DNA from: Mesobacillus subterraneus
Lineage (GTDB): Bacteria > Bacillota > Bacilli > Bacillales > Cytobacillaceae
Direction of reading: 5' to 3'
Length of the DNA: 64,000 bases
NCBI RefSeq assembly: GCF_020524355.2
Contig: NZ_CP129019.1
Coordinates: forward strand, 992,001-1,056,000
Shown: positions 13,375 through 61,070 of the stretch, one piece after another
Layout of the letters: every line of letters starts with the position of its first letter
Position numbering within the stretch: the first letter of the stretch is position 1
Program-made: the position numbers and the translations under genes
The notes under the pieces: model-generated
Told to the model about the DNA's origin: nothing
What the model saw: only the letters and a program-made list of their open reading frames with translations
Databases searched by the model: none

Positions 13375-13942
13375 GGTAAAAAAGGTCGCCAATATAGCTG
13401 GTTAGCACGCTTAAAATCCAGATGATGGTAAAACGAGTTGTCAATTGAGTTGATTGGCATCACAAAAATCCAATTTATGGTTAAAATGATCACCAATACA
13501 GGTGATTGATGCATTCATAATCCATATACTGGTAAAATGAATCACCAATACAGGTGATTGGTGCATTCATAATCCATATACTGGTAAAATGAGTCACCAA
13601 TGGAGTTGATTAGAACACACAAAATCCAGATGTTAGTAAAAAGAGTTGCCAATAGAGCTAATTGGTTTTATGAAAATCCATCTTATGGAAAAACGAACCA
13701 CCAATACTGGTGAATGGCACGTTGATAAAGCTGCTGGTAAAATGAGTTGCCAATAGAGCTGCTTGGTATTGTGAAAATCCATTTTATGGTAAATATAATC
13801 ACTAATATAAGTGATCGGCAGGCATACAATCAAATATTGTTAAAATTATTCACCAATGGAGTTGATTGGCACTCTGGAAAATCAGATGCTGGTAAAAAAG
13901 GTCGCCAATGAAGTAATTAGTAATTAGCATTAGGCTAATAAG
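13375..13942. repeat. Degenerate tandem array, 52-bp period, about 11 units
   Basis: The landmark GGTAAA and its variants recur at 13375, 13427, 13479, 13531, 13583, 13635, 13687, 13736, 13788, about 13838 and 13891. The spacing is 52 bp almost throughout (one step of 49, and about 50 then 53 around the tenth unit). Each unit carries CCAAT-N7-ATTGG or a variant. Cleaner units also have a palindrome such as ATCACC-N6-GGTGAT. One unit shows the compensated form ATCACT-N6-AGTGAT and another CACCA-N4-TGGTG. No credible reading frame crosses the array. It lies between convergent yqxA and the NERD-domain gene. The same CCAAT/ATTGG stem forms the terminator of the NERD gene next to it. Confidence 0.9.
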
Positions 13943-13971
13943 AACGCTACTAAAGCTGAATGGTCTACAGT

Positions 13972-14007
13972 AAAAAAAAGATCACCAATGACTACTCATT
14001 GGTGATC
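13972..14007 (-). terminator. Terminator of the NERD-domain gene
   Basis: Read on the minus strand, a perfect 12-bp stem (GATCACCAATGA arm at 13980-13991, complement 13996-14007) with a 4-base loop is followed by eight T residues (A run at 13972-13979). The stem contains the ACCAAT/ATTGGT pair that recurs in the adjacent array. Confidence 0.9.
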
Positions 14008-14018
14008 GAAAGGAAAAA

Positions 14019-14924
14019 TTAATTATAATACGACCATTGGCCATAACCTGACATGATAAAGTTTTCCTTCAATAGTTGCTGGATTTTTAATTTCGGAAAT
14101 ATTTCACCGCACCATTCATAGATAGTATTTGTAGAGATCTTTTTAGTTGGATATAAAATTTGAAGCTCCTCGATACTTCGTAATAATACTTCTTTTGTAT
14201 TTTCATGCTTTCCGCATTTCTTACAAGTTAGTATAACCCCGCTGTATTCCTCCATAACCGTTCCGCACGAATGGCAAAACACTCCTTTTCGCAGCTGGGA
14301 ATATTCAAATGCTGGTATTTTAGTGAATGGAGATTTCGTCAAATGAGAGGATAGTAGTTTTTCTGACAGTCTGGAATGTTGGCTATTTAAAGTAGACTTT
14401 TGGTTATTCATTTTGTGGATAAAACGGTTGAGGTTGGTCGGGAGGATGATTCGCCTGTTGAGAGGAGCCTGGTACAAAGTGAAATCCGGATTGACAAAAA
14501 CGAGATAGGCTTCTATGGGGACTTTAAATCCAATACTATTAAAAAATTGTCTTAATAGAGATTCGTTCCTTTCAAGCTGAAGGAGTGGATTCTTAACTTC
14601 TTTTCCTTTAATTGTCTTGAATTGATCGCCATCAAAATAATACTCTCCTTCAAAGTATTTCACTTCAAATAAGTAGGTGAGAATCTGAGAAATCATCAGT
14701 GAATCAATTTGAAAATGTGAATGATTCTGTTCAAACAGCAGGTCATTAAGGATGTATGATTGAATGAATATTTGTCGCAGATACCCATCAAACATCACCT
14801 CGCCTTCAAATCCTTTTTTGAGATTAAAATAATATTGTTTCTCTTTCTCTGTTAAATCCATCCGCCTGTTCAATACCTTGAATACTCTTAATTCTTCCGA
14901 TTCATAACGATCCTTTTTAAACAT
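14019..14924 (-). CDS. NERD-domain protein with C-terminal zinc ribbon
   Basis: A 301-residue protein. The N-terminal half is a nuclease-related (NERD) domain: GFEGEVMFDGYL near residue 38, then LNDLLFEQNHSHFQIDSLMI and YLFEVKYFEGEYYF. Together these give an E...D...ExK pattern like PD-(D/E)xK nucleases. A four-cysteine zinc-ribbon follows (CHSCGTVMEEY...CKKCGKH). The last 55 residues are helical and could be a DNA-binding segment. The start at 14924 is chosen for AAAGGA upstream. It sits alone, opposite to its neighbours, between yqxA and lepA, which are adjacent in B. subtilis, so it looks like an insertion. Function unproven; DNA processing is plausible from the fold only. Confidence 0.85.
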   Translation of the reverse strand: MFKKDRYESEELRVFKVLNRRMDLTEKEKQYYFNLKKGFEGEVMFDGYLRQIFIQSYILNDLLFEQNHSHFQIDSLMISQILTYLFEVKYFEGEYYFDGDQFKTIKGKEVKNPLLQLERNESLLRQFFNSIGFKVPIEAYLVFVNPDFTLYQAPLNRRIILPTNLNRFIHKMNNQKSTLNSQHSRLSEKLLSSHLTKSPFTKIPAFEYSQLRKGVFCHSCGTVMEEYSGVILTCKKCGKHENTKEVLLRSIEELQILYPTKKISTNTIYEWCGEIFPKLKIQQLLKENFIMSGYGQWSYYN

Positions 14925-15042
14925 AATGCACATCCTTTCTAACTTCATTTTACATAATGAGTTCTTAATTTTCTGTGAACAATTTAAGGACACATTCCAG
15001 CTCGGCTAGCTGGCCCAAACGTGACACTTCCTCCATTATTTA

Positions 15043-15071
15043 TTGAATCTTGATATTCCTGCTGATATAAT
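15043..15071 (+). promoter_or_regulatory. Promoter of lepA (sigma-A type)
   Basis: TTGAAT at 15043-15048, a 17-bp spacer, then TATAAT at 15066-15071 with an extended TGA just before the -10. It lies 43 bp upstream of the lepA start. Confidence 0.8.
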
Positions 15072-15113
15072 CAACAATAGTGTACATGCGCGAGTATAGT
15101 AGGAGTGAACGCA

Positions 15114-16949
15114 ATGAGCAGAGAAGATAGACTTAATAGACAAAGTAAAATACGAAATTTTTCGATTATCGCCCATATTGACCATGGTAAGTCGACGCTG
15201 GCTGACCGTATCCTTGAAAAGACGAATGCATTGACTGCGCGGGAAATGAAGGATCAGCTTCTGGATTCGATGGATCTAGAGCGTGAGCGCGGAATAACAA
15301 TAAAACTGAATTCAGTGCAATTGAAGTACAAGGCGAAGGATGGAGAAATCTACACCTTCCACCTGATCGATACTCCTGGACACGTAGACTTTACATACGA
15401 GGTTTCCCGAAGTCTGGCAGCATGTGAGGGAGCGGTTCTTGTTGTCGATGCGGCACAAGGGATCGAGGCACAGACATTGGCGAACGTATACCTTGCGATC
15501 GACAATGACCTGGAGATCGTGCCAGTCATCAACAAAATCGATTTGCCAAGTGCGGATCCTGAGCGAGTAAGGAATGAAATTGAAGATGTGATCGGGCTTG
15601 ATGCTACTGATGCTGTTCTTGCTTCTGCTAAAGCGGGAATTGGAATAGAAGAAATCCTGGAACAAATCGTCGAGAAAGTTCCGGCTCCACAAGGAGACCC
15701 TGAAGCTCCTTTAAAAGCATTGATTTTTGACTCTTTGTACGACGCATACCGCGGCGTAGTCGCTTATATCCGTGTTGTCGATGGCACCGTAAAAGTTGGC
15801 GATAAAGTCAGAATGATGGCAACAGGCAAAGAATTTGAAGTAACGGAAGTTGGAGTATTTACTCCAAAGGCAACTCCCGCAGCTGAATTGACTGTCGGAG
15901 ATGTAGGTTTCCTGACTGCGGCAATTAAGAACGTCGGCGACACACGTGTTGGTGATACGATCACAAACGCGAAAAATGGAGCTGCCGAAGCACTTCCTGG
16001 ATACCGTCGTTTGAACCCGATGGTATATTGCGGTCTGTATCCAATTGACTCAGCGAAATTCAACGACCTTAGGGAAGCTCTTGAAAAATTAGAGCTTAAC
16101 GATTCAGCGCTTCAATTCGAGCCTGAAACTTCACAGGCGTTAGGCTTCGGTTTCCGATGTGGATTCCTCGGACTTCTTCATATGGAAATCATTCAAGAGC
16201 GAATCGAACGTGAATTCAAGATTGATTTGATTACGACAGCGCCAAGTGTAATCTATGATGTAATCATGACTGATGGTACTGAATTGAAGGTAGACAACCC
16301 ATCAAACATGCCTGACCCTCAGAAGATTGACCGTGTTGAAGAGCCTTATGTAAAAGCAACAATGATGGCACCGAATGAATATGTTGGAGCAATCATGGAG
16401 CTTTGCCAGGAAAAACGCGGTATCTTTATCGATATGCAATATATGGACGAAACGCGCGTCAGCATCGTGTATGAAATCCCGCTCTCTGAAATCGTTTATG
16501 ATTTCTTTGATCAGCTAAAATCAAGCACGAAAGGCTATGCGTCATTCGATTATGAACTGATAGGATACAAGCCTTCAAAGCTAGTGAAGATGGACATTCT
16601 TTTGAACGCTGAAAAAGTTGATGCTTTGAGTTTCATCGTCCATAATGATTTTGCTTACGAGCGCGGAAAGATTATTGTAGATAAGCTTAAGGACCTGATT
16701 CCACGTCAGCAGTTCGAGGTGCCAATCCAGGCAGCAATCGGACAGAAAATTGTTGCCCGTTCGACAATCAAGGCGATGCGTAAAAACGTACTGGCGAAGT
16801 GTTACGGTGGGGATATCTCCCGTAAACGTAAGCTCCTTGAGAAGCAAAAAGAAGGTAAAAAGCGCATGAAGCAAGTTGGTTCTGTAGAAGTTCCGCAAGA
16901 AGCCTTCATGGCAGTCCTAAAAATGGACGACAACAATACGAAGAAGTAA
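15114..16949 (+). CDS. lepA: Elongation factor 4 (LepA)
   Basis: A 611-residue translational GTPase that acts on stalled or mis-translocated ribosomes. The G1 motif [10 protein letters not shown]3 DTPGHVDF and G4 NKID are present, together with the LepA-specific C-terminal domain ending near [11 protein letters not shown] 15114 is preceded by AGGAG at 15101. The in-frame GTG at 15105 overlaps that site and is rejected. It has its own strong promoter. hemW follows after 131 bp. Confidence 0.97.
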
Positions 16950-17080
16950 AATAGCAGGGGAGGCTGGATGTGCTTGGTAAAGCAAGCGATTCTGGACTCT
17001 TTTTTCAATAAATTCATCGTCTCAATAGAAAAATGGATCTAAATCCTGGCCTGAAAAGCCACATTAGGAAGTGAACAAAA

Positions 17081-18214
17081 ATGAAAGCAGCATACATCCA
17101 TATTCCTTTCTGCCACCATATTTGCCATTACTGTGATTTCAATAAGGTATTCATGAAGGGGCAGCCAGTTGATGAATACCTGGCGGCACTAGAAAAGGAA
17201 ATGAGCCTGTCGGTAAACAAGCAAGTAATGGAAACCGTGTTTGTCGGTGGCGGCACACCTACAGCCTTAAATGAAAAACAATTGGATAAGCTTGTTTCCG
17301 CGATCAACAGACAGCTTTATATAGACTCCAATACGGAATATTCCTTCGAAGCCAACCCGGGGGATTTGTCAAAAGAAAAGCTGGCAATCCTGAAGAATGC
17401 CGGTGTCAATCGGCTTAGTTTTGGAGTACAGACTTTCAATGATGAACTTTTGGAAAAAATTGACCGCAGCCATCGGGCTAAGGATGTGTTTGAATCAATT
17501 GAAAATGCAAAAACAGCAGGTTTTGATAATATCAGCATTGACTTGATTTATAGCCTTCCAGGGCAGACAAAGCAGGATTTCAAAGAATCAATCCAAACAG
17601 CCCTTGGACTAGGGCTGGTTCATTATTCAGGATATTCATTAATCATTGAACCGAAAACAGTGTTCTACAACTTAATGCAAAAAGGTAAGCTCCCGCTCCC
17701 AGGTGAGGATGCAGAAGCAGAAATGTATGAAACACTAATGGAGCAAATGGAAAGCGGGGGGCTGAGGCAATATGAGATCAGCAATTTCTCCGTCCCAGGA
17801 TTCGAAAGCAGACACAACATTACCTATTGGAACAACGAAGAGTATTACGGGTTCGGTGCCGGGGCTCATGGATATGTCGGTGGAACCAGGCAGTCAAATT
17901 TCGGACCATTAAAAAAATATATGGAGCCATTATCTAAAGGTGAACTTCCAATCATGGATGCGCATAAAGTGACTCTTGAGGAAAAAATGGAAGAAGAAAT
18001 GTTCCTCGGACTACGGAAGACAGAAGGTGTATCGATTCGACAATTCGAGGAAAAATTCGGGCGGAATCCGCTGAATTTATTTGCAGGTCAAATAAAGGAA
18101 TGGTCAGAGAGAGGCCTTCTGAAAAGTGATGGAGAAAAAATCTCACTAACAAGGCAGGGACGCCTGCTCGGCAATGAAGTCTTTCAATCATTCATTGGGG
18201 TATCAAATCATTGA
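17081..18214 (+). CDS. hemW: Radical SAM heme chaperone HemW
   Basis: A 377-residue radical SAM protein. The cluster-binding cysteines are in PFCHHICHYCDF (CxxxCxxC) near residues 9-18, followed by VFVGGGTPT. It resembles coproporphyrinogen dehydrogenase HemN but has the single-domain size and the short N-terminus of HemW, now regarded as a heme chaperone, so an enzymatic role in heme synthesis should not be assumed. The hrcA promoter -35 box overlaps its stop codon. Confidence 0.9.
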   Translation: MKAAYIHIPFCHHICHYCDFNKVFMKGQPVDEYLAALEKEMSLSVNKQVMETVFVGGGTPTALNEKQLDKLVSAINRQLYIDSNTEYSFEANPGDLSKEKLAILKNAGVNRLSFGVQTFNDELLEKIDRSHRAKDVFESIENAKTAGFDNISIDLIYSLPGQTKQDFKESIQTALGLGLVHYSGYSLIIEPKTVFYNLMQKGKLPLPGEDAEAEMYETLMEQMESGGLRQYEISNFSVPGFESRHNITYWNNEEYYGFGAGAHGYVGGTRQSNFGPLKKYMEPLSKGELPIMDAHKVTLEEKMEEEMFLGLRKTEGVSIRQFEEKFGRNPLNLFAGQIKEWSERGLLKSDGEKISLTRQGRLLGNEVFQSFIGVSNH

Positions 18215-18239
18215 CATCCTCAGCGTTTATTGATAAATT
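18211..18239 (+). promoter_or_regulatory. Promoter of the hrcA-grpE-dnaK-dnaJ operon
   Basis: TTGACA at 18211-18216, a 17-bp spacer and TAAATT at 18234-18239 (4 of 6 matches). The -35 box overlaps the TGA stop of hemW. The predicted start of transcription falls just before the CIRCE element, as needed for HrcA repression. Confidence 0.75.
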
Positions 18240-18249
18240 ATTTTTAGAA

Positions 18250-18276
18250 TTAGCACTCGTTCTTATAGAGTGCTAA
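18250..18276 (+). promoter_or_regulatory. CIRCE operator (HrcA binding site)
   Basis: A perfect consensus TTAGCACTC-N9-GAGTGCTAA at 18250-18276, located 14 bp upstream of the hrcA start. HrcA bound here represses the operon until heat shock titrates GroE away. Confidence 0.98.
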
Positions 18277-18290
18277 CAGAGGTGATGATG

Positions 18291-19322
18291 TTGTTAACAG
18301 ATCGTCAGGTGCTTATTTTGCAGGTGATTGTTGATGACTTTATTCGTTCAGCTCAACCGATAGGTTCCAGGAGCTTGTCGAAAAAGGAAGAAATTAATTT
18401 CAGTTCGGCGACTATTCGAAATGAAATGGCGGATTTGGAGGATTTGGGGTTCATTGAAAAAACCCATACATCCTCTGGAAGGATACCATCGGAGAAGGGA
18501 TATCGTTTTTATGTCGATAATCTTTTGCTGCCTCAAAAAGTCAATCATTCAGATATGGCGACGGTTAAATCGATTTTTGCCGAGCGGATATACGAGCTGG
18601 AAAAAATCGTTCAGAAGTCAGCAAAAATCCTGTCTGAAATGACAAATTATACTTCAATTGTCTTAGGTCCGGCTGTTAAGGACAACAGATTGAAGAAGCT
18701 TCAGATCGTTCCGCTGACAAAGGACACAGCGATCGCCATCATCGTGACGGACACTGGACATGTTGAGAACAGGATGTTCAATTTCCCTACAAGTGTCGAT
18801 CCTTCTGATGTTGAGAAAATGGTCAACATCCTGAACGAACGCCTGGCAGGAGTCCCGCTAACAAGCCTTAACTCTAAGATTTACAAGGAGATAGCCATGC
18901 TGTTACGCCAGCATATAAGCAGCTATGATACTCTCCTGCATTCGATTGCGGATACACTCAATCTGCCTTCACATGAAAAAGTGTTTTTCGGCGGCAAGAC
19001 CAATATCCTAAGCCAGCCAGAATTCAATGATGTTGAGAAAATCCGGAGCCTTATGAACATGATTGAACATGAGGACGGCTTATATCAGCTGCTCAAACAA
19101 AATCCGGCAGGGATTAACGTCAGGATTGGCACGGAAAATGATAATTCTGCGATGGAAAATTGCAGCCTCATAACAGCGACCTATGCAATAGGCGAAGAGA
19201 AATTGGGGACAATCGCGGTGTTAGGTCCGACTCGTATGGAGTATTCACGTGTGATCAGCTTGCTGCAATTGATCAGCACAGATTTATCCAAGGTGTTGAC
19301 TGACCTGTATCAAAATAAATAG
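18291..19322 (+). CDS. hrcA: Heat-inducible transcription repressor HrcA
   Basis: A 343-residue repressor of class I heat-shock genes. The N-terminal winged helix ([20 protein letters not shown], then [20 protein letters not shown]) binds CIRCE; the C-terminal domain contains [15 protein letters not shown]. The start is set at TTG 18291, giving the usual MLTDRQ N-terminus and the same 343-residue length as B. subtilis; ATG 18288 is an alternative one codon upstream. AGAGG at 18278-18282 serves either. The gene represses its own operon through the adjacent operator. Confidence 0.95.
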
Positions 19323-19483
19323 GCATGGAAATATTGATTAAGGGTGGAGCAGCCCGTTCCATCCTGAATCGTCATGTGTTTTCTACTGAAGCATATTTGC
19401 TTCGTTGAAATATAAATCAAACCAGATATTCTGGAACAGTGTGGCAATACAATGCCGCGAAACTTTGAGGGAGGTGAGTTAAC

Positions 19484-20059
19484 GTGACAGAAGAGAGAAA
19501 TACTGAGCAAGAATTGAACAGCCAGATGGAAGAGGAAACGGTTGAGGAAGTTTTTGCTGAAAATGAAGCTTCTGAAAATACTGAAGAGATGCCAGCTCAA
19601 GATCTAATGGAGCAAAAAGTGGCTGAACTAGAAGGGAAGCTTGAGGAAGCCGACAACCGTTACTTGCGCCTTCAGGCTGATTTTGACAACTTCCGCCGCC
19701 GTTCAAGGATTGAACTTGAAGCGAGCGCTAAATATAGAGCTCAAAGCATTATTTCCGATCTGCTGCCAGCAATCGACAACTTCGAGCGGGCTTTGAAGAT
19801 GGATGTGGATAATGAACAGGCTAAATCCCTTAAACAGGGAGTGGAAATGGTTTACCGCAGCTTGCTTGATGCCCTTAAAAATGAAGGCGTAGAAGAAATC
19901 GAAGGTGTTGGCAAGGAATTTGACCCGCATCTTCATCAGGCTGTCATGCAGGCTGAAGATGAGAATTTCGGTCATAACATTGTTGTTGAAGAGTTCCAAA
20001 AAGGCTACATGCTAAAAGACCGCATCATTCGTCCAGCTATGGTGAAGGTGAACCAATAA
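19484..20059 (+). CDS. grpE: Nucleotide exchange factor GrpE
   Basis: A 191-residue cochaperone that releases ADP from DnaK. A glutamate-rich, poorly ordered N-terminal 50 residues is followed by the coiled coil [20 protein letters not shown] and the core [13 protein letters not shown]. The C-terminal beta-domain reads [23 protein letters not shown] 19484 follows GGGAGGTG. It lies 161 bp after hrcA and 114 bp before dnaK in the CIRCE operon. Confidence 0.96.
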
Positions 20060-20155
20060 CAGTTGTATCTGGGCTCTTTTCGAGGAGACATCCGAATAGA
20101 TTGGATGTGTGCTTGAGAAAGCAACGAAGTTTACGAAAAGAACCTACATAAATGA

Positions 20156-22009
<1,854 letters not shown>

Positions 22010-22023
22010 TTTCTTATAGCAAC

Positions 22024-22064
22024 CAAAAAGTCAAAGTCAGGTCATACTTGGCTTTGGCTTTTTG
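22024..22064 (+). terminator. Hairpin after dnaK (attenuating terminator)
   Basis: A 16-bp stem, 22024-22039 with 22049-22064, including two G-U pairs, runs into TTTTTGATTTTA. It lies between dnaK and dnaJ, where partial termination would lower dnaJ expression. Confidence 0.7.
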
Positions 22065-22198
22065 ATTTTATGAGGGGTAACGGACTGGGTCCAATACAGA
22101 AACAAAATAAACGCATATCGAGATATTTTAAATATTGCGTATGGATGTACGGGAATGTTAGAATTATCTTTATGTGAAAAGATTCGGGAGTGGTAATC

Positions 22199-26599: not shown

Positions 26600-26826
26600 G
26601 ACCATTTTTAAGTATTTCGGCAATATTTTCGATAAATCAGGGAAAATATATCGACCAAGTTATAGACCAAAACCGACCAGATTTTTAATATTTAGACCAC
26701 AATTTAGAGATATTTAGACCACACGTTTAAATATATCGACCACATATAGAGATATATCGACCACATTTTAAACTATTTCGACTACACTTTTAAATATATC
26801 AACTACACTTTAAGCTAATTCACCCA
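26600..26826. repeat. AT-rich tandem array, 21-bp period
   Basis: The landmark GACCA(C) and its variants (GACTA, AACTA, ACCCA) recur at 26653, 26675, 26695, 26717, 26738, 26759, 26780, 26801 and about 26822. Steps from 26717 on are exactly 21 bp. The intervening bases are of the form TTTAAATATATC or TAGAGATATATC. An earlier partial copy lies at 26600. No gene is seen in 26530-26863. The array fills the convergent junction of mtaB and yqeW; no hairpin terminator for yqeW is visible on the other side. Confidence 0.85.
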
Positions 26827-26863
26827 CATCTACTGTTTATTAGTCGAAGTGGTATTCCTGCCG

Positions 26864-34528: not shown

Positions 34529-34740
34529 GCTTCCGAAGGTGTATGAAGGAAAAAAGGGAGATAATCATCTTTTCCCCCTCCCTCCGCTTTCCCGCAGTTA
34601 GGTCTAATTTTAAATAGAGATGAAAGTTTAGAGAAAAACTGATATGATGGTACATAAAGTCAGGTGTATTTCCCAGTTATTCTCAAACTGACTCCATTGT
34701 ATTTAATATTTACATAAAATCTAGATACACTTTAAGTAGA

Positions 34741-35508
34741 GTCTAGCCCCAGCGCCTAGCCAATTTTCATCATCGAAAGTGCTTCCTCGAGTATCTTGGG
34801 ATAAGCGTCAGCTTTGAGCAGCTCGAGACGTTTGTCTAGCTGCGGCTCCTAACTCCTCGAGACGCTTCGGTCCTGCCAATGAAGTCAAAGAGCGACTTCA
34901 CTGTCAAGCCCTCCAGCGCTTGTCGGAGTTGGGCAGTCGCCTCCGCTTTTCAAATTCGGTCCTGCCAATGAAGTCAAAGAACGACTTCATTGGCAGGTCC
35001 TCCAGCGCTTGTCGGGCCTGAACGAGGCGCTTACGCTTTTCGTTTTCTAAAAGTATAAACTTTTAAACTTAGATTCGTGTCTAGCTTCAGCGTCTAGCCC
35101 CTCGAGTCGCTTCGGTCCTGCCAATGAAGTCAAAGAACGACTTCACTGACAGGTCCTCCAGCGCTTGTCGGGCCTGAACGAGGCGCTTACGCTTTTCGTT
35201 TTCTAAAAGTATAAACTTTTAAACTTAGATTCGTGTCTAGCTTCAGCGCCTAGCCCCTCGAGTCGCTTCGGTCCTGCCAATGAAGTCAAAGAACGACTTC
35301 ATTGGCAGGTCCTCCAGCGCTTGTCGGGCCTGAACGAGGCGCTTACGCTTTTCGTTTTCTAAAAGTATAAACTTTTAAACTTAGATTCGTGTCTAGCTTC
35401 AGCGCCTAGCCCCTCGAGTCGCTTCGGTCCTGCCAATGAAGTCAAAGAACGACTTCACTGACAGGTCCTCCAGCGCTTGTCGGGCCTGAACGAGGCGCTT
35501 ACGCTTTT
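34741..35508. repeat. 156-bp tandem repeat region with a degenerate leading copy
   Basis: The landmark TTCGGTCCTGCC recurs at about 34866, 34956, 35111, 35267 and 35423. The last three steps are 155, 156 and 156 bp. A full unit contains CTGCCAATGAAGTC and its complement GACTTCATTGGCAG around a 7-base loop, a second hairpin AAAAGT-ATAA-ACTTTT, and GC-rich ends related to CTAGCTTCAGCGCC and GAGGCGCTTACGC. Units alternate between ATTGGCAG and ACTGACAG in the hairpin arm. No coding frame is seen over 34529-35526. The last unit ends 3 bp before the AGGAGGG of pgpH. Confidence 0.92.
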
Positions 35509-35526
35509 CAAATAGGAGGGTTGTTA

Positions 35527-40895: not shown

Positions 40896-41170
40896 CAAAA
40901 GCTAGTAGCAATCAACCTATATGATTAAAGAAATCGTTTCGCTGTATCGGTTGATAAAAATTACATATGTTGCTGTGAAGGAAAAGAGTACTTAATCCCT
41001 CTGTAAAAGCGAGTCCGGGTATGGTGTGAGCCGGATTGCAGTATTTAAGGAAGGCGTTCCGGAGCGACATCACTTTTAAAGAGGCTGCTTTTTTGCAGCA
41101 AGTAGGGTGGAACCGCGGGTAAACTCTCGTCCCTATGCATGAAAAGATGCATAGGGGGCGGGAGTTTTTT
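40896..41170 (+). ncRNA. T-box riboswitch leader of glyQS
   Basis: The canonical T-box AGGGTGGAACCGCG is at 41104-41117, followed by the competing terminator at 41122-41170. That terminator has a long stem containing CCCTATGCAT/ATGCATAGGG and ends in TTTTTT. Upstream lies a stem I region with GCGAGTCCGGG...GTGTGAGCCGGA near 41010-41035, as in other T-boxes. A candidate glycine specifier GGC is at 41053-41055; I am less sure of that. Uncharged tRNA-Gly would favour antitermination and expression of glyQ-glyS. Confidence 0.93.
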
Positions 41171-52246: not shown

Positions 52247-52254
52247 TGAATGAA

Positions 52255-52280: not shown

Positions 52281-52292
52281 CAGTTTGTAGAC

Positions 52293-52331: not shown

Positions 52332-52379
52332 GGATTTCATCGAATTTTTCTAAGGAAATAGACTCTCTTTGCTATACTT

Positions 52380-53741
52380 TTAGGCCATTACTGGACTTCT
52401 CCATGTCCAGTTGGCCATCTTCTTCAGGTTCAATGCAGCGAAAGTAAGCATCGCCTGCATCGACAATTTTTTAAGTCCCCTTAGGGTTGTCCAACGCATG
52501 CCATGCTTTTCTTTTGCATCTGCGAAAACGCGCTCAATGGTTTCTTTGCGCTTCGCATAGATTTGTTTTACTTCTGGTTTGTGTCTCAAGTGGTCTACCT
52601 CTTCTACGTACTCTTGCCAGATATGGCGCGTTACCACCTTTTGGTGGTCCTTGCTTTCTGTGCATTGCGCTAAAAACGGGCAGTTGGCGCAGATATGCTT
52701 GGGGGATATTATATTCACGATATCCCTCTTTAGTGGTGGTTGAATACTTCAAGATTTCACCGGCAGGACACAAGTAACAGTCGTAAAATTCGTCATATAC
52801 ATAGTCATATTTACGGAAGAAGCCATCCTTCGTTCGTGGTCGGGTATAAGGCAAAGCCGGGGTCATTTCATTTTCCATCAGAAACTTCGTAATCGCTGGT
52901 GTTTTATAGGCTGCGTCGTACCGCAACAGCAGTAGGCTTTCCAACTTTCTCTATCACTTGTTCTACCAGTGGCTCAAGAATCAGGCTGTCATGCGTGTTA
53001 CCAGGTGTCACAATTGTCCCCAGGACAAATCCGTTACGATCTGATGCCGCATGGAAAGAGTAGGCAAACTGCTTTGTCCGTTCGTCCTTGACGTAGTATC
53101 CACTCTCAGGATCGGTCGTACTTTCCTTGATTTCCTTCGTTTCTTCCTTATCGAACTTATCAGGTGGAAAAGGTTCCTTCCCATGGTCTTCCCGATCCAG
53201 ATTGATCTCTTCCTGGAGTTTCTCTTGATACGCCCGTGTTTCCTTACGCACCACTTTTTTCTCGAATTTATGTTTATTCGCACTGGCTTTTACGTGGGTT
53301 GAATCAATGAAGACGTGTTCTGCACTAATAAGTTTCTTATCAGCTGCGGTCTTAAGAATTCGATAGAAGATCTGTTCAAACAAATCAGTGTCTTTAAAAC
53401 GGCGTTCGTAATTCTTCCCGAAGGTGGAGAAGTGGGGCACTTTATCATGGAATCCATAACCCAAAAACCAGCGGCGGTACTATGTTCGTTTCTACTTCGG
53501 CAATGGTCTGGCGCATGGAACGGATGCCGAATGTATATTGAATGAATGAGAGTTTAATCAGAATAACAGGGTCAATGCTTGGGCGGCCTACTTCCGAATA
53601 CACATCTTTCACCAAGTCATAAATGAAAGAAAAATCTAGGGCAGCTTCCATCTTACGGACTAAATGTTCCTGAGGAACCAGTTGGTCTAAAGCAACCACT
53701 TCTAATTGATCTCGTTGGATTGGATTATTTTTCGAAAGCAT
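52380..53741 (-). pseudogene. IS1182-family transposase, interrupted by three single-base insertions
   Basis: The transposase runs from ATG 53741 (MLSKNNPIQRDQLEVVALDQ) to TAA at 52380-52382. N-terminal DUF772 region: LVPQEHLVRKMEAALDFSF, and IDPVILIKLSFIQYTFGIRS. Middle: WFLGYGFHDKVPHFSTFGKN and the catalytic aspartate region HVFIDSTHVKASANKHK. C-terminal DDE part: CPFLAQCTESKDHQKVVTRH and RKETIERVFADAKEKHGMRW. Frame changes occur at about 53480, at 52918 and at GGGGG 52701-52705. Each is one surplus base; removing them gives an uninterrupted product of about 452 residues. It may therefore be intact in the real genome. Confidence 0.88.
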
Positions 53742-53816
53742 GTTTATCACCTCAAGCGTTATATATATCTATTTTAAAATAGACTTATGGTTAGTTCCAC
53801 GTTAAGTTTGGAAGTC

Positions 53817-53952
53817 CTGTTGATTGGAGTGGAAGGCGCGTAGACTCCTGCGGGCTCAGCTGGACAGGTGAGACCCCGCAGACGCCAACGGCGGTGAGGA
53901 GGCTCACCGCCAGCCCCGCGGAAAGCGAAGCGCCTGGAACGGAAATCAACAG
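53817..53952. repeat. 136-bp palindromic dispersed repeat inside the IS
   Basis: Outer ends CTGTTGATT and AATCAACAG are perfect inverted repeats. Inner GC-rich blocks include GGAAGGCGCG/GCGCCTGGAAC and GGTGAGACC with GAGGAGGCTCACCGCC. It is much richer in GC than its surroundings. No frame crosses it. A sequence of this kind is common in intergenic regions of Bacillus relatives; that is from memory, not from a search. Confidence 0.75.
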
Positions 53953-54024
53953 CCCCCATTCCAGCACCAACCAAAAAAAAGACTGTAGACAAGCTCGATT
54001 TCCATCGAGTTTGTCTACAGTCTG

Positions 54025-54056
54025 AGGCTCTTTGCTTTTGCAAAGAGCCTTTTTTA
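54025..54056 (+). terminator. Right copy of the duplicated hairpin, with T tract
   Basis: Identical 26 bases to 52255-52280, here followed by TTTTTATT. This is the likely original 3' side of the cccA terminator before the IS inserted. Confidence 0.85.
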
Positions 54057-54058
54057 TT

Positions 54059-54362
54059 GAAAAGTATAAATTTTTGTACTTAGATTAGTGTCCAGCTCCA
54101 GCGCCTAGCCCCTAGAGTCGCTTGTCTGGCTGCGGCTCCTAACTCCTCGAGACGCTTGTCTAGTCTCGCCTCCTAGAAACTCCGAAACTTCAACTCCGCC
54201 GGCAGAAGCAAAAAGCGCTTCTTTGCCAGAGTCTCCAGTTTCTGCGTTTCTGGCCAGTCGGCTATACTTTTCGATTTCGGTCCTGGCAATGAAGTCAAAG
54301 AACGACTTCACTGCCAGGCCCTCCAGCGCTTGTCGGGGCTGACCAAGGCGCTTGCGCTTTTC
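54059..54362. repeat. Diverged copies of the CTAGC-CAGCGCC dispersed repeat
   Basis: It begins with AAAAGTATAAATTTTTGTAC and GTGTCCAGCTCCAGCGCCTAG, continues with a second diverged copy, and ends with a hairpin copy CTGGCAATGAAGTC/GACTTCACTGCCAG and CTCCAGCGCTTGTCGGGG...GCGCTTGCGCTTTTC. The parts match the 156-bp units at 35 kb. With the IS it fills the gap before trmK; no gene is seen. Confidence 0.85.
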
Positions 54363-54436
54363 TTACATAATTGGACAAGAGGCACGTGGTTTTCATATAC
54401 TTATAAAAGCAAAATAAGATTTAGTAGGTGACTTGT

Positions 54437-55147
54437 ATGAATGCTGAAAAACTATCAGACAGGCTTGAAGCCGTAGCAAATTATATTCCTGAAGGTGCAA
54501 GCCTGGCCGATATTGGTTCTGACCATGCTTATCTTCCGTGTAATGTTGTAAAGAAGGGAACTGTTACAATGGCGATCGCAGGCGAGGTCGCCGAAGGGCC
54601 TTTTCAATCTGCCATTGAGCAAGTTCGTGAAGAAAATCTCACTGAGAAGATTTCAGTCAGAAAAGGAGATGGTCTTGAAGTCATTCAACCAGGAGAGGTG
54701 GATTGTATTACCATCGCTGGTATGGGTGGTACATTGATATCAACGATTCTCGAACAAGGGAAATCGAAACTAGAAGGAGTCAGCAGGCTTGTCCTACAGC
54801 CTAATGTTGGAAGCTTTGCGGTCCGCAAATGGCTGGTTGACAGTGGATGGGAATTGGTCAAAGAAGAAATTTTAGAAGAAGACGGGAAAATTTACGAAAT
54901 CCTAGTTGCTGAGAAAGGCGAACCAATGAAGCCATATCAGCATATTGATTTTGATATTGGAATATTGTTTGGCCCATTTTTACTGAAGGAAAAATCAAAG
55001 GTATTCATTGAAAAGTGGAATGGGGAAAAACGAAATTGGGAGCGTATCCTAAAGCAGCTCGATGAGGCTGTACAGAATGATGATACAGAAAGCAAGAGAC
55101 AAGAACTTAAAATGAAACTAAAGATGGCAGAGGAGGCGTTACAGTGA
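54437..55147 (+). CDS. trmK: tRNA (adenine22-N1)-methyltransferase TrmK
   Basis: A 236-residue SAM-dependent enzyme that makes m1A22 in bacterial tRNAs. SAM site SLADIGSDHAYLPC near residues 21-34 and catalytic region DCITIAGMGGTLISTIL. A C-terminal coiled-coil part ends the protein. ATG 54437 is chosen over GTG 54428, since GTAGGTG is the ribosome-binding site. It overlaps yqfO by 4 bp. Confidence 0.93.
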   Translation: MNAEKLSDRLEAVANYIPEGASLADIGSDHAYLPCNVVKKGTVTMAIAGEVAEGPFQSAIEQVREENLTEKISVRKGDGLEVIQPGEVDCITIAGMGGTLISTILEQGKSKLEGVSRLVLQPNVGSFAVRKWLVDSGWELVKEEILEEDGKIYEILVAEKGEPMKPYQHIDFDIGILFGPFLLKEKSKVFIEKWNGEKRNWERILKQLDEAVQNDDTESKRQELKMKLKMAEEALQ

Positions 55148-56259
55148 AAAACGTGAATGGCCATCAAGTGATTCAGCTTTTTGAACAATTTTCGCCTAAG
55201 GTATTTGCAATGGAAGGCGATAAGGTTGGCCTGCAAATAGGTGCGTTGAACTCAGCGGTCAATAATGTCCTGGTTGCGCTTGATGTAACAGAAGAAGTGG
55301 TGGAGGAGGCAATTGCCAAGAATGTTCAATTGATCATTGCGCATCATCCGCCAATATTCAGGCCATTGAAGAAGATCGCGACGGACACCCCTGCTGGAAG
55401 AATGATTGCCAAGTTAATCAAGCATGACATCGCAGTTTATGCGGCCCATACGAATCTTGATGTCGCTAAAGGAGGTGTAAATGACCTGCTGGCTGATGCT
55501 CTCGGTTTAAAGAACCCTCAAGTGCTGGTGCCAACGTATGAGGATAAGTTGAAAAAGCTTGTCGTTTTCGTACCTGAGGAAAATGCTGAGATTCTCAGAG
55601 ATGCCTTAGGGAATGCAGGAGCCGGTGCAATCGGCAACTACAGCCATTGTACGTTCTCCGGGCCCGGAGAGGGACGGTTCCTTCCAGGTCATAATACAGA
55701 TCCTTATATCGGCGAACAAGGAAAGCTTGAAGCGGTCAATGAAGTGCGCGTTGAAACTGTTTTCCCGCAAAGTATTGAAAAGAGGGTGATTCAAGCGATG
55801 ATCAAGGCCCATCCTTATGAGGAGGTCGCCTATGATGTATATCGACTTGAAAATATGGGAGAACAGCTTGGACTTGGTAGAATTGGAACAGTCGAAGAAA
55901 CGACGCTGTCTGAATATGCCAATGTTGTTAAGAAAGCCCTGGGAGTTGATAAAGTTCGGGTTGTCGGTGACTTGAACGCAAAGGTGAAAAAGGTAGCTGT
56001 CCTTGGTGGTGACGGAAATAAGTATTACTCACAGGCGAAATTCCGCGGGGCGGATGTATACATTACCGGAGATATATACTATCACACAGCACACGACGCG
56101 CTGATGGCCGGACTGAATATGATTGATCCGGGTCATAATGTCGAGAAGGTCATGAAAGTGGGAGTCGCCACTGTGATGGAAGCACGATGCCAGGAAAAAG
56201 GGTACGATGTAAAGTTCATTCCATCTGAAATATCGACCGATCCATTTACTCATATTTAG
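55144..56259 (+). CDS. yqfO: Nif3-like dinuclear metal center protein YqfO
   Basis: A 371-residue NIF3/DUF34 protein. Metal-binding segments are IIAHHPPIFRPLK, VYAAHTNLDVAKGG and, near the C-terminus, VYITGDIYYHTAHDAL. A PII-like insertion of about 100 residues sits between the halves, as in the long Gram-positive form. Some annotation calls it GTP cyclohydrolase I type 2; the cellular role is unsettled. Start GTG 55144 overlaps the trmK stop. Confidence 0.92.
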   Translation: MKNVNGHQVIQLFEQFSPKVFAMEGDKVGLQIGALNSAVNNVLVALDVTEEVVEEAIAKNVQLIIAHHPPIFRPLKKIATDTPAGRMIAKLIKHDIAVYAAHTNLDVAKGGVNDLLADALGLKNPQVLVPTYEDKLKKLVVFVPEENAEILRDALGNAGAGAIGNYSHCTFSGPGEGRFLPGHNTDPYIGEQGKLEAVNEVRVETVFPQSIEKRVIQAMIKAHPYEEVAYDVYRLENMGEQLGLGRIGTVEETTLSEYANVVKKALGVDKVRVVGDLNAKVKKVAVLGGDGNKYYSQAKFRGADVYITGDIYYHTAHDALMAGLNMIDPGHNVEKVMKVGVATVMEARCQEKGYDVKFIPSEISTDPFTHI

Positions 56260-56397
56260 GATTTGCCATCGATTCAAGATTGTTCTAGCAACATTCCGCT
56301 CACAGAATAAGAAAAACTGCGCTAGAATAATGAAGTCGAGTACGAGTTCGGTCACAGCACCAAATCTCGGGTTGTATTTATGAGCGCTAAAAATAAG

Positions 56398-56430
56398 AAA
56401 GCAGCCTGAATGGATAATTCAGGCTGCTTT
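56398..56430. terminator. Bidirectional terminator between yqfO and ispH
   Basis: A 14-bp perfect stem AAAGCAGCCTGAAT with complement (56398-56411, 56417-56430) between two convergent genes. Confidence 0.88.
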
Positions 56431-56441
56431 TCATATTATAC

Positions 56442-57395
56442 TTATACGTTTGCTTCGGTCTTCTTGACCTTTGGCAGGATTTTGTGAAGAGGTACTTTTT
56501 TCTCTTTTACCCAAGTTCCTTCGTTTTTCTTGTCAAACTGCTGGAGGAAGGAAATGACCTCTTTTGTGATTGGTGTAGGAGTAGATGCTCCAGATGTTAC
56601 GGCGACAGTATCAGCATCTTTTATCCAATTGATATCAAGTTCGGTGATATCGGCAATTCGATATGCCTTAGTTCCGGCTATTTCTTCAGATACTTGTGCG
56701 AGACGATTTGAATTATTGCTTTTTGGATCTCCAACTACGATCAGCACATCTGCTTCCTTAGCCTGCTCGGCGACTGCCTCCTGGCGTACTTGTGTAGCCA
56801 TGCAAATTTCTCTATGGACTTCTGAGTGCGGATACTTTTCTGTTACTTTCTTCATGATTTCGGCAACGTCCCACTGGCTCATCGTTGTCTGATTGGTTAC
56901 AATCAGTTTTTCAGCATGCAGTTCTAAAGCCTCGACATCAGCTGCTGTTTCCACAAGATGAACGATCCCTGGTGCGACACCTACTGCTCCCTCAGGTTCG
57001 GGATGCCCTTTTTTGCCGATGTAAATAACTTCATAACCTTCTTTTTCTTTTTCCGTGATCAGGTTATGAGTGTTTGTAACGTCTGGACATGTCGCGTCAA
57101 TCGAGACAAGGCCCTTTTCCTTGGCAAGCTCCCTGACTTCGGGGGAAATGCCGTGGGCAGTGAAAATAACTGTCCCGCCTTCAACTTTTTCTAGGATTTC
57201 CTTGCGGTTGTTTCCATCCAATGTAATGATGCCTTCTTCTTCAAATGCATCCGTGACATGTTTATTATGGACAATCATCCCAAGTATATATATTGGACGC
57301 GGCAGGCTTTTATCCAATGCAGCATTACGTGCAATGACCATGGCGTCGACAACACCATAGCAATAACCGCGTGGCGATATTTTTATTACATTCAT
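56442..57395 (-). CDS. ispH: 4-Hydroxy-3-methylbut-2-enyl diphosphate reductase IspH
   Basis: A 317-residue iron-sulfur enzyme, last step of the MEP isoprenoid pathway. Cluster cysteines lie in [23 protein letters not shown] and [14 protein letters not shown]. The motif [11 protein letters not shown] is typical. ATG 57395 has GGAGGTTG upstream on the minus strand. It stands in the yqf cluster as yqfP, opposite in direction to its neighbours trmK-yqfO and cshB. Confidence 0.96.
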
Positions 57396-57502
57396 TGAGT
57401 CAACCTCCTAAGAATACCTCTGATTCTTTCTTTTATTATATAAGACTTGCAGAAAGAATACAAAAGCCACTTTCCAGAAGGAATGAATTAACTGTTTTCC
57501 AA

Positions 57503-58132
57503 TTATATGAACAATTTAGGAGTAGAAGCTGAATTATTGCTTTGCTTTTTGATTGGCGGTTTTTGTGATGGAGAACTGGAACCAGCGTTTTTGGACTTCT
57601 TGGCTTTAATCTTTTTGTCGATTTTTTCGTTCGTTTCTTGTTCGGTTGTTGGTTCATCAGCATCCGGGAGGTCCTTCAATCCTCTGTACAGTTTCCACAT
57701 TGAAGGCAAATTACGGACGAGAGGACCGTATTGCTGGATCATCGGTCCGAATTGCTGTGCGGTGCTAAGAACTTTTTGCGTGTTGGTGAGAAAACCATTC
57801 AGTGCAGATGGATCAGCGAGGGTCTTCAGGATTCCTCCGCCAGAGCTGGCTGCACGAGCAGGCCCACTTCCGCCTCCTGGTATTAAACCCGAGATACCAT
57901 TTCCCTGGCCTCTGCTGCCTTTCCCTAGGATCTTTGAAAGCAAACCTCCACCTTGTCTTGATTGCGGTTTTCTTCCCATCATTCGAGGCATTTGTCCCTG
58001 CGGCATCCTGGGTCCAGGACCAAATTGATTTGGGTACATCTGCCGCTGACCCATGAAGGGACCTCCCATCATGCCAGGACCATAAAACCGATTCTGCATT
58101 CCGCGTGAGTTCATACGGGGTCCATGTAGCAT
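57503..58132 (-). CDS. yqfQ: YqfQ/VrrA-like low-complexity protein
   Basis: A 209-residue protein of the YqfQ-like family. The N-terminal 90 residues are rich in Gly, Pro, Met, Gln and Arg (GPGMMGGPFMGQRQMYP), followed by a compact middle (LKTLADPSALNGFLTNTQKV, QQFGPMIQQYGPLVRNLPSM). The lysine- and serine-rich tail ends the protein. It lies upstream of ispH, where yqfQ is in B. subtilis. Function unknown; related genes carry variable-length repeats. Confidence 0.85.
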   Translation of the reverse strand: MLHGPRMNSRGMQNRFYGPGMMGGPFMGQRQMYPNQFGPGPRMPQGQMPRMMGRKPQSRQGGGLLSKILGKGSRGQGNGISGLIPGGGSGPARAASSGGGILKTLADPSALNGFLTNTQKVLSTAQQFGPMIQQYGPLVRNLPSMWKLYRGLKDLPDADEPTTEQETNEKIDKKIKAKKSKNAGSSSPSQKPPIKKQSNNSASTPKLFI

Positions 58133-58375
58133 CGTGACCCCTCCTTTCCCATTATTTCATCTCCTATTAGAGTATGCATATAATCAGAATTGGTTTAAGA
58201 AAAAAGTATGTTTGCGAAACAGGTTTGTTTTTTTATAAGGAAAGGTTAAGATAGTACTGATTGGAGATTTTCTGCAATCTTTATTATAATTACAGGATGA
58301 ACCTGATGAAATCAGCTTACGGAACGGCTGAAATCCCTTTTTAACAGGGAACAGGGTGAAAGAAGGAGATTCTCA

Positions 58376-59692
58376 ATGAGTGAAACAAAATTTAATCGTT
58401 ATGAATTGAAACCATTCATTATAGATGCGATCAATAAACTAGGTTTTCATGAGCCAACTGAAATCCAGGAACGTCTTATCCCTACGATCATGAAGGGAGA
58501 AAGTGCCATCGGCCAATCCCAGACGGGTACAGGAAAGACGCATGCCTATGTACTGCCTATCATGGACAAGCTTAACCCATCACGCAATGAGGTGCAGGCG
58601 GTAATCACTGCGCCAACTCGTGAGCTTGCCAACCAAATTTACCATGAAGTTCTTAAAATTGCTGAACACGCTCCGCAGGGAGAGCAGATCACAGCTCGTT
58701 GCTATATTGGCGGGACAGACAAGCAAAGAACGATTGAAAAGCTCAAGACACAGCCGCAAATCGTCATTGGCACTCCGGGGAGGATTAACGACCTGGTAAA
58801 GGAAAACGCGCTATTTGTGCATACGGCGAACATGCTCGTGATCGATGAGGCAGACTTAATGCTTGATATGGGATTCATCGAGGACATTGACCAGTTCGCA
58901 TCCCGTATGCCAGAAAAGCTTCAAATGCTTGTATTTTCAGCAACGATTCCTGAAAAATTAAAACCATTCCTTAAAAAGTACATGGAAAACCCAAAATATG
59001 TACAAATCGATCCTAAACAGGCTACAGCAGAGAAGATTGAACATATTCTTCTGCCTGCAAGGCATCGTGATAAAATTGGGCTTGTTTATTCAGCGCTGGT
59101 TGCGTTCAATCCGTATCTTGGTATTGTATTTGCTAATACAAAGAAAAAAGTAGATGAAATTGCTGATGGTTTGATCCAAAAAGGGATGAAGGTTGGCCGT
59201 ATCCATGGAGACCTGAGCCCGCGCGAACGCAAGCGTGTCATGAAACAGATTAAGGACCTTGAGTTCCAGTATCTTGTTGCTACTGACCTGGCCGCCAGAG
59301 GAATCGATATTCAAGGGATCAGCCATGTCATCAACTATGAACTTCCTACAGACCTGGATTTTTATATTCACAGGGTTGGAAGGACTGCCCGTGCAGGTTC
59401 TTCAGGTGTTGCCCTGACGGTCTATGAGCAGAGTGATGAAGATGCACTGATCCGTCTTGAAAAAATGGGCATCACTTTTAGAAACATTGATTTGAAAAAA
59501 GGTGAACTTACCGAAATCGAGGAGCGGAACAGACGCCTGAACAGAAAGAAAAAAGAAACTACAGGCGAGGCGAAGGCAAAGAATCTTGTTTCCAAACCTA
59601 AAAAGGTAAAACCAGGCTATAAGAAGAAAATGAAATATGAGATGGATAAAATTAAAAAGCGAGAAAACCGTATACAAAAAAGAAATAAATAA
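58376..59692 (+). CDS. cshB: DEAD-box RNA helicase CshB
   Basis: A 438-residue cold-shock-type RNA helicase. Motifs: Q region GFHEPTEIQERLIPTIM, I SQTGTGKT, Ia APTREL, II DEAD, III SAT, V ATDLAARGIDI, VI HRVGRTARAG. A lysine-rich tail of about 60 residues follows the core. AGAAGGAGA precedes ATG 58376. A TATAAT at 58285-58290 with a weak TTGGAG box may be its promoter. nfo follows after 21 bp. Confidence 0.94.
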   Translation: MSETKFNRYELKPFIIDAINKLGFHEPTEIQERLIPTIMKGESAIGQSQTGTGKTHAYVLPIMDKLNPSRNEVQAVITAPTRELANQIYHEVLKIAEHAPQGEQITARCYIGGTDKQRTIEKLKTQPQIVIGTPGRINDLVKENALFVHTANMLVIDEADLMLDMGFIEDIDQFASRMPEKLQMLVFSATIPEKLKPFLKKYMENPKYVQIDPKQATAEKIEHILLPARHRDKIGLVYSALVAFNPYLGIVFANTKKKVDEIADGLIQKGMKVGRIHGDLSPRERKRVMKQIKDLEFQYLVATDLAARGIDIQGISHVINYELPTDLDFYIHRVGRTARAGSSGVALTVYEQSDEDALIRLEKMGITFRNIDLKKGELTEIEERNRRLNRKKKETTGEAKAKNLVSKPKKVKPGYKKKMKYEMDKIKKRENRIQKRNK

Positions 59693-59713
59693 AGGGATTT
59701 AGGAGAGATCAAG

Positions 59714-60604
59714 ATGTTAATTGGATCACATGTTTCCATGAGCGGCAAAAAGATGCTGCTTGCTGCTAGTGAGGAAGCTGTCTCATATGGTGCAAATACT
59801 TTTATGATCTATACGGGGGCACCTCAGAATACAAGAAGGAAAAAAATCGAGGACCTGAATATTGAAGCTGGCCGTCTGCATATGGAGCAGAATGGTATCG
59901 ATGAAATCGTCGTCCATGCCCCTTATATCATCAATATAGGGAACAGTCAAAATCCTGATACCTTTGATTTAGGAGTAAGATTTTTACGAAGTGAAATCGA
60001 TAGGACAGAGGCAATTGGTTCCAGGCAAATTGTGCTCCACCCAGGTGCGCATGTTGGAGCAGGTACAGAAAAAGGGATTGAAAAAATCATAGAGGGACTT
60101 AATGAAGTGCTTTCACAGGATGATCGAGTTCAAATTGCTCTTGAAACAATGGCTGGAAAAGGATCGGAGTGCGGAAAATCCTTTGAAGAACTCGCGATGA
60201 TCATCGATGGAGTAACCCATAACGACAAGCTTTCTATTTGCTTCGATACTTGCCATACTCATGATGCAGGATACCGGATCGTTGAAGATTTTGATGGTGT
60301 GCTGAATGAATTCGATAAAATCATCGGTCTTGATAGATTGAAGGTGCTTCACCTCAATGACAGCAAAAATGAGGTCGGGATGAGGAAGGACCGTCACGAG
60401 AATATCGGATTCGGACATATCGGCTTTGAGGCATTAAGCTATATTGTCCATCATCCGCAATTGACACATGTTCCTAAGATTCTCGAAACTCCTTTTGTCG
60501 GTGAGGACAAGAACAGTAAAAAGGCGCCCTACAAACATGAGATTGACATGCTGAAAAGCAAACAATTTGAAGAAAATTTGCTTGATATCATCAGGAATAG
60601 CTAA
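59714..60604 (+). CDS. nfo: Endonuclease IV (Nfo)
   Basis: A 296-residue TIM-barrel zinc enzyme that cuts DNA at abasic sites. [14 protein letters not shown] starts the protein, with [35 protein letters not shown] and [20 protein letters not shown] carrying metal ligands. TTAGGAGAG precedes ATG 59714. It is followed by a terminator and a repeat array. Confidence 0.96.
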
Positions 60605-60606
60605 AC

Positions 60607-60639
60607 AAAAGCTGTGGATTTAGTTCCACAGCTTTTTTT
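60607..60639 (+). terminator. Terminator of cshB-nfo
   Basis: A 12-bp perfect stem AAAAGCTGTGGA/TCCACAGCTTTT (60607-60618, 60625-60636) is followed by TTT. Confidence 0.9.
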
Positions 60640-60696
60640 GCGGGTAAAATAGGACCGGTTATGAGTGACCACTAGGTGGAATGATAGTTACAGGCA

Positions 60697-61060
60697 TGAC
60701 GGACAGAAATAGCCGGAAAAGAGGAAAAAATGTCCGTCAAAAGGGTCATGACGGACAGAAATAGGCGGGAAAGAGGAAAAAGTGTCCGTAATAAGGGTCG
60801 TGACGGACAGAAATAGCCGAGAGAGAGGAGAAAGTGTCCGTCATAAGGGTCATGACGGACAGAAATAGCCGAGAGAGAGGAGAAAGTGTCCGTCATAAGG
60901 GTCATGACGGACAGAAATAGCCGAGAGAGAGGAGAAAGTGTCCGTAATAAGGGTCGTGACGGACAGAAATAGGCGGGAAAGAGGAAAAAGTGTCCGTCAA
61001 GAGAGTCATGACGGACAGAAATAGGCGGGAAAAAGAAAAAAGTGTCCGTCATAGAAATCA
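60697..61060. repeat. Tandem array, exact 52-bp period, seven units
   Basis: TGACGGACA recurs at 60697, 60749, 60801, 60853, 60905, 60957 and 61009, with a last partial at 61061; all steps are 52 bp. Each unit also carries TGTCCGTCA (or TGTCCGTAA in two), so adjacent arms pair as TGTCCGTCAT-N7-ATGACGGACA. Between them lies AGAAATAGSCG and a purine run of the GAGGAAAAAG kind. On the minus strand each hairpin is followed by a T/C-rich tail. This is a degenerate form of the yqfT terminator that abuts the array. Two units with TGTCCGTAA are each followed by CGTGACGG instead of CATGACGG. No credible gene is seen. Confidence 0.95.
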
Positions 61061-61070
61061 TGACGGACAC
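61029..61070 (-). terminator. Terminator of yqfT
   Basis: On the minus strand, an 11-bp perfect stem (GTGTCCGTCAT arm, 61060-61070 with 61042-61052) and 7-base loop are followed by TTTTTTCTTTTTCCC. It begins 6 bp after the yqfT stop and is the template for the repeated units of the array. Confidence 0.9.

Follow-up and report, generated by a model that had tools for sequence, protein, structure and literature searches.

Fork-oriented 52-bp satellite arrays at gene junctions of Mesobacillus subterraneus

Three short-period tandem arrays lie in a 64,000-nucleotide stretch of Mesobacillus subterraneus DNA (the window, positions 992001–1056000 of a single 4,786,507-bp contig): A1 at 13 kb, A2 at 26 kb and A3 at 60 kb, with periods of about 52, 21 and 52 bp on which Tandem Repeats Finder (TRF) and the spacing of the core motifs agree. 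An earlier note on this DNA had reported these arrays and overlooked their strongest regularity, which is orientation with replication: arrays of the 52-bp class are polar with respect to the replication fork, and this holds for five families of sequence across six genomes. A1 and A3 are 52-nt, and A2 is a 20–21-nt, constant-length Bacillus satellite. The kind of element is ordinary and the observation real, and one regularity, the fork polarity, is apparently unreported.

In this chromosome dnaA lies at 4.41 Mb, and the GC skew turns at about 1.9–2.0 Mb and a second time at 4.3–4.6 Mb. Polarity was counted over homologous matches of five families (a, which is A3, and b, c, d and e, drawn from the genome sample described below) in six genomes of the genus, each a single contig, omitting 33 of 338 places close to the origin or terminus. 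The orientation predicted from the fork was found at 287 of 305 places in the six genomes and at 67 of 70 in the own genome. The five query arrays agree by construction; the figures without them are 282/300 and 62/65, respectively. An orientation that followed the genes alone would give about 82% (the mean leading-strand coding fraction, with two rows close to the origin left out), which the observed 62/65 exceeds (p 0.0014). By family, agreement was 46/48 for a, 59/61 for b, 35/45 for c, 119/123 for d and 28/28 for e.

Convergent gaps are informative on this point because gene direction predicts nothing there. In all 15 convergent 52-class arrays of the sample the leading strand is the purine-rich one (13/13 once the window is excluded), compared with 32 of 66 array-free convergent gaps (Mann–Whitney U test, p 2e-8); the polarity is not background composition. 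Homology gave an orientation to 26 of 39 non-query arrays in the sample, and agreement with the fork was 9/9 in convergent gaps, 3/4 in divergent gaps, 2/2 in lagging-strand tandem gaps and 8/11 in leading-strand tandem gaps. The divergent array at 914356 runs against the fork in this assignment and with it, weakly (41.9 bits), in the six-genome count. Purine words such as AAGAG stand on the leading strand in 23 of the 44 arrays of the class and on the lagging strand in one.

Known oriented words were rejected as the source of the polarity: within the 44 arrays GAGAAGGG, which we take to be the SpoIIIE recognition sequence (SRS) word, occurs 1:0 leading to lagging, and the Chi-like AGCGG 32:5. 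The FtsK-orienting polar sequences (KOPS), SRS and Chi have replication orientation in common with the 52-bp class but are single short words. For AGAAGGG the count in these arrays is 29 on the leading strand and 0 on the lagging strand, as compared with 22:11 in array-free gaps; it is worth a look, although it could not be shown to be a common denominator. Arrays of the class that oppose the fork are rare, namely those at C1:478933, 1507439 and 2872791 of the own genome (G000), which are all of its exceptions in the polarity count, and at C1:1112695 of G009; such arrays are candidates for recent inversions.

The sample comprised one 20-kb block in three along the chromosome together with the window, 1.644 Mb after one overlapping block was dropped. 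Genes were called with a home-made hexamer model, and 831 intergenic gaps of at least 100 bp were scanned for self-similarity at lags of 8–259 bp. Periodicity was found in 103 of the 831 gaps, and in one after shuffling. Removal of one run of N and of 28 arrays that belong to a GC-rich dispersed repeat left 74, of which 44 belong to the 52-bp class (52 bp in 34, 53 in seven, 104 in three), 20 to the 21-bp class (20–21 bp in 12, 40–42 in eight) and 10 to other lengths. The earlier note had named a broad spread of periods as telling against its idea; the spread is narrow, the GC-rich repeat aside, with just those 10 arrays departing from the two classes, which supports the idea. Lengths around 31 and 63 bp are rare (one 32-bp and one 61-bp array). 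The density of the 52-bp class, 26.8 arrays per Mb, extrapolates to about 130 in the chromosome. The consensus units form several families that share no evident sequence. Within an array, whole units are alike, with consensus agreement mostly 0.8–0.97; a CRISPR array would combine identical repeats with unique spacers and cas genes. A 2.3-kb array at 61944–64231 of the own genome, with periods 54/108/162, is probably a repetitive coding region overlooked by the gene caller.

Satellites of both lengths are known from Bacillus: among 4029 tandem repeats in 176 genomes, 1886 were of 51–53 nt and 781 of 20–21 nt, the latter remarked to equal two helix turns (Subirana & Messeguer 2021, PMC8161180). 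Their size is constant and their sequence variable, and small RNAs or nucleoid proteins were suggested to account for them (PMC8161180). The tables of that study give 82 repeats for selenatarsenatis, 30 of 20–21 and 49 of 51–53 nt, and list mesonae as well; in B. coagulans such satellites are transcribed (PMC8625621). The proposal that the window arrays are an undescribed kind of element must therefore be given up, as constant-length satellites of 52 and 20–21 nt are already described (PMC8161180). Like those repeats, the arrays here have both lengths, variable sequence, several families per genome and short words with their reverse within one unit. Each has a period of 51–53 or 20–21 bp whatever its sequence, several unrelated families occur in the genome, and all three arrays have four or more repeats with 60% or more of identical length (±1): six of eight core steps in A1, five of six steps at 21 and one at 22 in A2, and every step in A3. 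The sequences are not species-specific, since the A3 family matches 21 of the 41 genomes searched and four of the 21 genera. Species-specificity was not treated as defining because the authors present it as a tendency with exceptions among close relatives, the selenatarsenatis repeats being shared with two relatives (PMC8161180). What is added here is fork polarity, convergent enrichment per junction, inverted arms tested against nulls, curvature and orthologous junctions. In the accessible main text of PMC8161180 the terms convergent, intergenic, terminat- and curv- do not appear, and 'replication' appears once, outside an analysis of orientation. No mention of fork orientation of these satellites was found in the accessible parts of PMC8161180 and PMC8625621 or among the papers listed by the literature searches; an earlier study by the same authors may treat it.

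The observation that all three arrays occupy convergent junctions has a genome-wide counterpart. Arrays of the 52-bp class were found at 15 of 181 convergent, 25 of 1172 tandem and 4 of 182 divergent junctions, a convergent odds ratio (OR) of 4.1 (15/181 against 29/1354, p 7e-5); for the 21-bp class the counts were 7/181, 12/1172 and 1/182 (OR 4.2, p 0.006). With the window excluded, the OR was 3.6 in both classes (p 6e-4 and p 0.017, respectively). The GC-rich repeat showed no significant convergent enrichment (5/181, p 0.37). Equal use of the gaps is thus rejected, and siting confined to convergent gaps is not borne out, as 25 of the 44 52-class arrays are tandem and four divergent: the association is real, yet not exclusive. 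Convergent gaps have no promoters, and this lack is a sufficient passive reason for the enrichment.

A similar preference is known for repetitive extragenic palindromic (REP) elements, which are palindromic, intergenic and mostly located between convergent or unidirectional genes (PMC3733652). REPs and bacterial interspersed mosaic elements (BIMEs) with their REP-associated tyrosine transposases (RAYTs) share all three properties with the 52-class arrays. Unlike them, the arrays here have a near-fixed 52-bp period over unrelated sequences, are polar with replication and come without a Y1 transposase. The latter family (PF01797) gave no match in the genome, in a search that was positive in 5 of 14 control genomes, and identity with REP/RAYT was rejected on its absence. 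Plasmid iterons are direct repeats about two helix turns apart on one face of the DNA and resemble A2 in spacing; the A2 class is instead chromosomal and dispersed.

How might fork orientation, fixed length and convergent enrichment arise together? Inverted arms scoring at least 8 are present in 24 of 44 52-class consensus units and in 14 of 150 random intergenic 52-mers, and 27 of the 44 units beat all 20 of their shuffles. The explanation that we consider best overall, to which we give a probability of roughly 35%, is that these are replication-polar satellites kept and spread through single-stranded DNA of the lagging strand. The 52-bp units would fold into hairpins where the lagging-strand template is single-stranded, and these would let copies expand, contract and homogenise; occasional copying into other gaps through the same single-stranded DNA would fix the way they point with respect to the fork. 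Arrays would persist mainly where no promoter or gene is broken, from which convergent enrichment would follow. The least explained step is the unit length of five (or two) helical turns, for which we favour a constraint at the DNA level, possibly phased curvature or a protein oligomerising along one face. The mechanism is offered as a commitment and not as a demonstration. Still more tentatively, the arrays could be replication-polar elements in which a putative machinery would copy or retain hairpin units of 52 bp in one orientation only, the one dictated by the lagging template; by extrapolation, more than 100 fork-oriented, helically phased arrays would then mark the direction of replication independently of the genes.

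Several observations weigh against spread through the lagging strand. Twenty of the 44 52-class units have no strong arms, and inverted arms were found in none of the 20 units of the 21-bp class. The latter class also shows no polarity: 12 of 20 arrays are purine-rich on the leading strand, word counts are mixed, and three of seven other places related to A2 agree with the fork, as counted by eye. Being without polarity and without arms, the 21-bp class is not covered by the same mechanism, so that one mechanism would not serve both sizes. No enzyme for it was identified, and the Y1 transposase family, which uses lagging-strand DNA, is the one absent from the genome; slippage alone predicts no fixed length. 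In leading-strand tandem gaps, purine-rich arrays (16/23) do not exceed background (238/328), and only the size of the skew does (p 0.004). Family c is less strict than the others (35/45), and five of its places match the other strand too. Finally, places in sister genomes are partly orthologous and hence not independent, which makes the own-genome count the fair one.

The earlier note had proposed that the arrays are helically phased, and an explanation close to this idea and to one published guess is that protein-binding or curved-DNA arrays pin supercoils or organise the nucleoid and are selected at gene 3' ends. The two dominant lengths, both integral numbers of turns, and the convergent enrichment are consistent with it, as is predicted curvature: repeated 52-class units were more curved than repeated random intergenic 52-mers (0.706 against 0.804, p 9e-4; 0.675 against 0.822, p 1e-6, under an A-tract model), in crude wedge models. 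These random 52-mers replaced an earlier null of block-permuted units (28 arrays, mean z −1.6) because permuting breaks A-runs. However, the 21-class units do not exceed random 21-mers in predicted curvature (0.641 against 0.632; 0.625 against 0.654), and the models give random repeats of roughly 31 or 63 bp much the same curvature as those of 52 bp, yet those phased lengths are nearly absent. Phasing fits both length classes and alone is insufficient to account for the two sizes. The 25 tandem arrays and the many unrelated cores, which speak against one sequence-specific protein, further count against such a role, and we regard it as possible though rather unlikely.

Less likely again, in our estimate, are neutral satellites, shaped by slippage and orientation-dependent stability without function or directed copying, with convergent enrichment as passive tolerance. 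Copy number that differs between species at one junction (see below), polarity largely regardless of genes, and the lack of promoters in convergent gaps all fit this explanation. It predicts neither two fixed lengths shared by unrelated sequences nor the dispersal of families into dozens of gaps, as seen for family d with 37–54 matches per genome.

Tandem intrinsic terminators that halt transcripts running against the fork are the least probable explanation and were rejected for the class, as 24 of the 44 arrays have fewer than two terminator-like sites on either strand even at a lax setting. The termination suggested in the earlier note fits A3 in part, which on the minus strand reads as a hairpin followed by a T-rich tract and has five terminator-like sites in 7.2 units; of the copies next to the minus-strand genes, that at A1 folds at −19.0 kcal/mol with a T8 run and that at A3 at −20.7 kcal/mol with a T6 run. 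Outcomes depend on the threshold; sites were counted at a strictest setting and at three laxer ones, the laxer ones with a calibration on gene ends. At a lax threshold the 44 arrays contained 76 lagging-strand and 34 leading-strand sites, with at least two sites in 14 (lagging) and eight (leading) arrays; at a stricter one, 32 of the 44 arrays fell below two sites on either strand, and at the strictest the totals were 5 and 5. With gmax −7 and tmin 1.6, 125 of 258 sense and 72 of 258 antisense gene ends were called, the latter indicating many false calls at the lax setting. Moreover, there would be no gene for such terminators to face in leading-strand tandem gaps.

Orthologous junctions were compared across genomes. 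The nfo/yqfT junction, the site of A3, was readable in 20 of 21 genomes of the genus: 12 have a 51–52-bp array (apparently identical in G011 and G020), three a degenerate array, one a single half-site word, and four nothing, among them G009, in which another neighbour replaces nfo. Copy number differs between species and position is kept. The mtaB/yqeW neighbourhood, that of A2, was readable at 72 of 80 named loci, many with gaps above 800 bp that may contain another gene. Arrays were present at 17 of the 72, 15 of them with periods of 21, 41, 83 or 51–53 bp; 21-bp CGACCACA arrays occupy loci of the Mesobacillus group and unrelated 52-bp arrays those of several Neobacillus. Unit sequence and even length class differ between species in this neighbourhood. 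Farther away, G029, of another family of the order, has four 51–52-bp arrays, and no array of the 51–53- or 20–21-bp class was found in 200 kb each of G030 and G033, of other families of the order. G023, of another genus in the same family, has arrays of 20 or 40 bp (five), 39 bp (one) and 100 bp (one); in its contig C3 (stretches L264–L268) one 20-bp family (TTATGAGCCTTTATTTT) occupies five gaps, and the 200 kb sampled contain no 52-bp arrays.

The GC-rich dispersed repeat lies outside these classes. Its 156-bp array on the plus strand (TRF, 34955..35509), in the tandem PhoH/7TMR-HD gap, had been read as three times 52; that relation dissolves, since the 28 arrays of the repeat in the sample have periods of 34, 36, 51, 52, 89, 121–125, 132, 156, 163, 208 and 210 bp. 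A 34-bp tandem repeat at 54104–54175 (TRF, 2.1 copies) carries words of the same repeat. The repeat (34720–35510 in the window, and gaps genome-wide) is itself fork-oriented: GGTCCTGCCAATGAAGTC and CTCGAGACG occur 36:1 and 50:5 leading to lagging, and 4:0 and 14:0 in convergent gaps, and other words 59:11 and 61:6, these being counts of words with several per array. That an unrelated repeat is also fork-oriented favours a general copying mechanism over a function specific to 52 bp.

By its PrmA protein the genome is closest, among named genomes, to Bacillus sp. ISL strains, Mesobacillus selenatarsenatis SF-1 and M. subterraneus (96–99% identity). In the window, A1 (about 13375..13950, minus strand) is a degenerate array of about 52 bp with CACCAAT..ATTGGTG cores, reported by TRF at 13413–13815 with periods 52/104/156. 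Its core-to-core steps are 53, 51, 52, 52, 104, 101, 51 and 52, of which six of eight are 51–53 and two are double. Related DNA occurs at 601340–601517, 670932–671427, 1214410–1214689 and 3119446–3119508 of the own genome. A2 (26674..26829, no strand assigned), found by TRF, has a GACCACA core within A/T-rich spacers, steps of 22, 21, 21, 21, 21 and 21, and related DNA at seven other genome places. A3 (60695..61069, minus strand; TRF 7.2 copies, 90% match) keeps a step of 52 throughout. On the plus (leading) strand its unit consists of the inverted arms TGTCCGTCAT/ATGACGGACA (10-base arms, 7-base loop) and a 25-base purine-rich spacer. It has 20 matches at 14 places in the own genome, and its 27-base core 91 matches with at most two mismatches. 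These own-genome searches with each array returned neither of the other two, in keeping with the report that they share no sequence.

The convergent placement of the three holds for the flanking genes as identified from Pfam/NCBIfam: DUF3679 (+) and NERD (−) at A1, MtaB (+) and a Na/Pi symporter (−) at A2, and Nfo (+) and DUF2624 (−) at A3; gene names like yqxA, yqeW and yqfT follow the earlier note or general usage. Behind the NERD gene a hairpin resembling a terminator (13977..14010, minus strand) is built of A1 stem words and followed by its T8, and the final A3 copy (61020..61085, minus strand) is a terminator-like hairpin behind the DUF2624 (yqfT) gene, with T6 after the stem. These hairpins resemble ordinary terminators, so terminators may have been the starting point of A1 and A3, or their product. 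Rfam covariance models at the gathering score matched nothing at the arrays; the sole match in the window is a T-box leader at 40966–41137 on the plus strand.

The convergent enrichment, common to REPs, may reflect simple tolerance. The constant length of these satellites has so far been without an accepted explanation, and fork orientation, if true beyond the genus, narrows the candidates to processes that sense the direction of replication.

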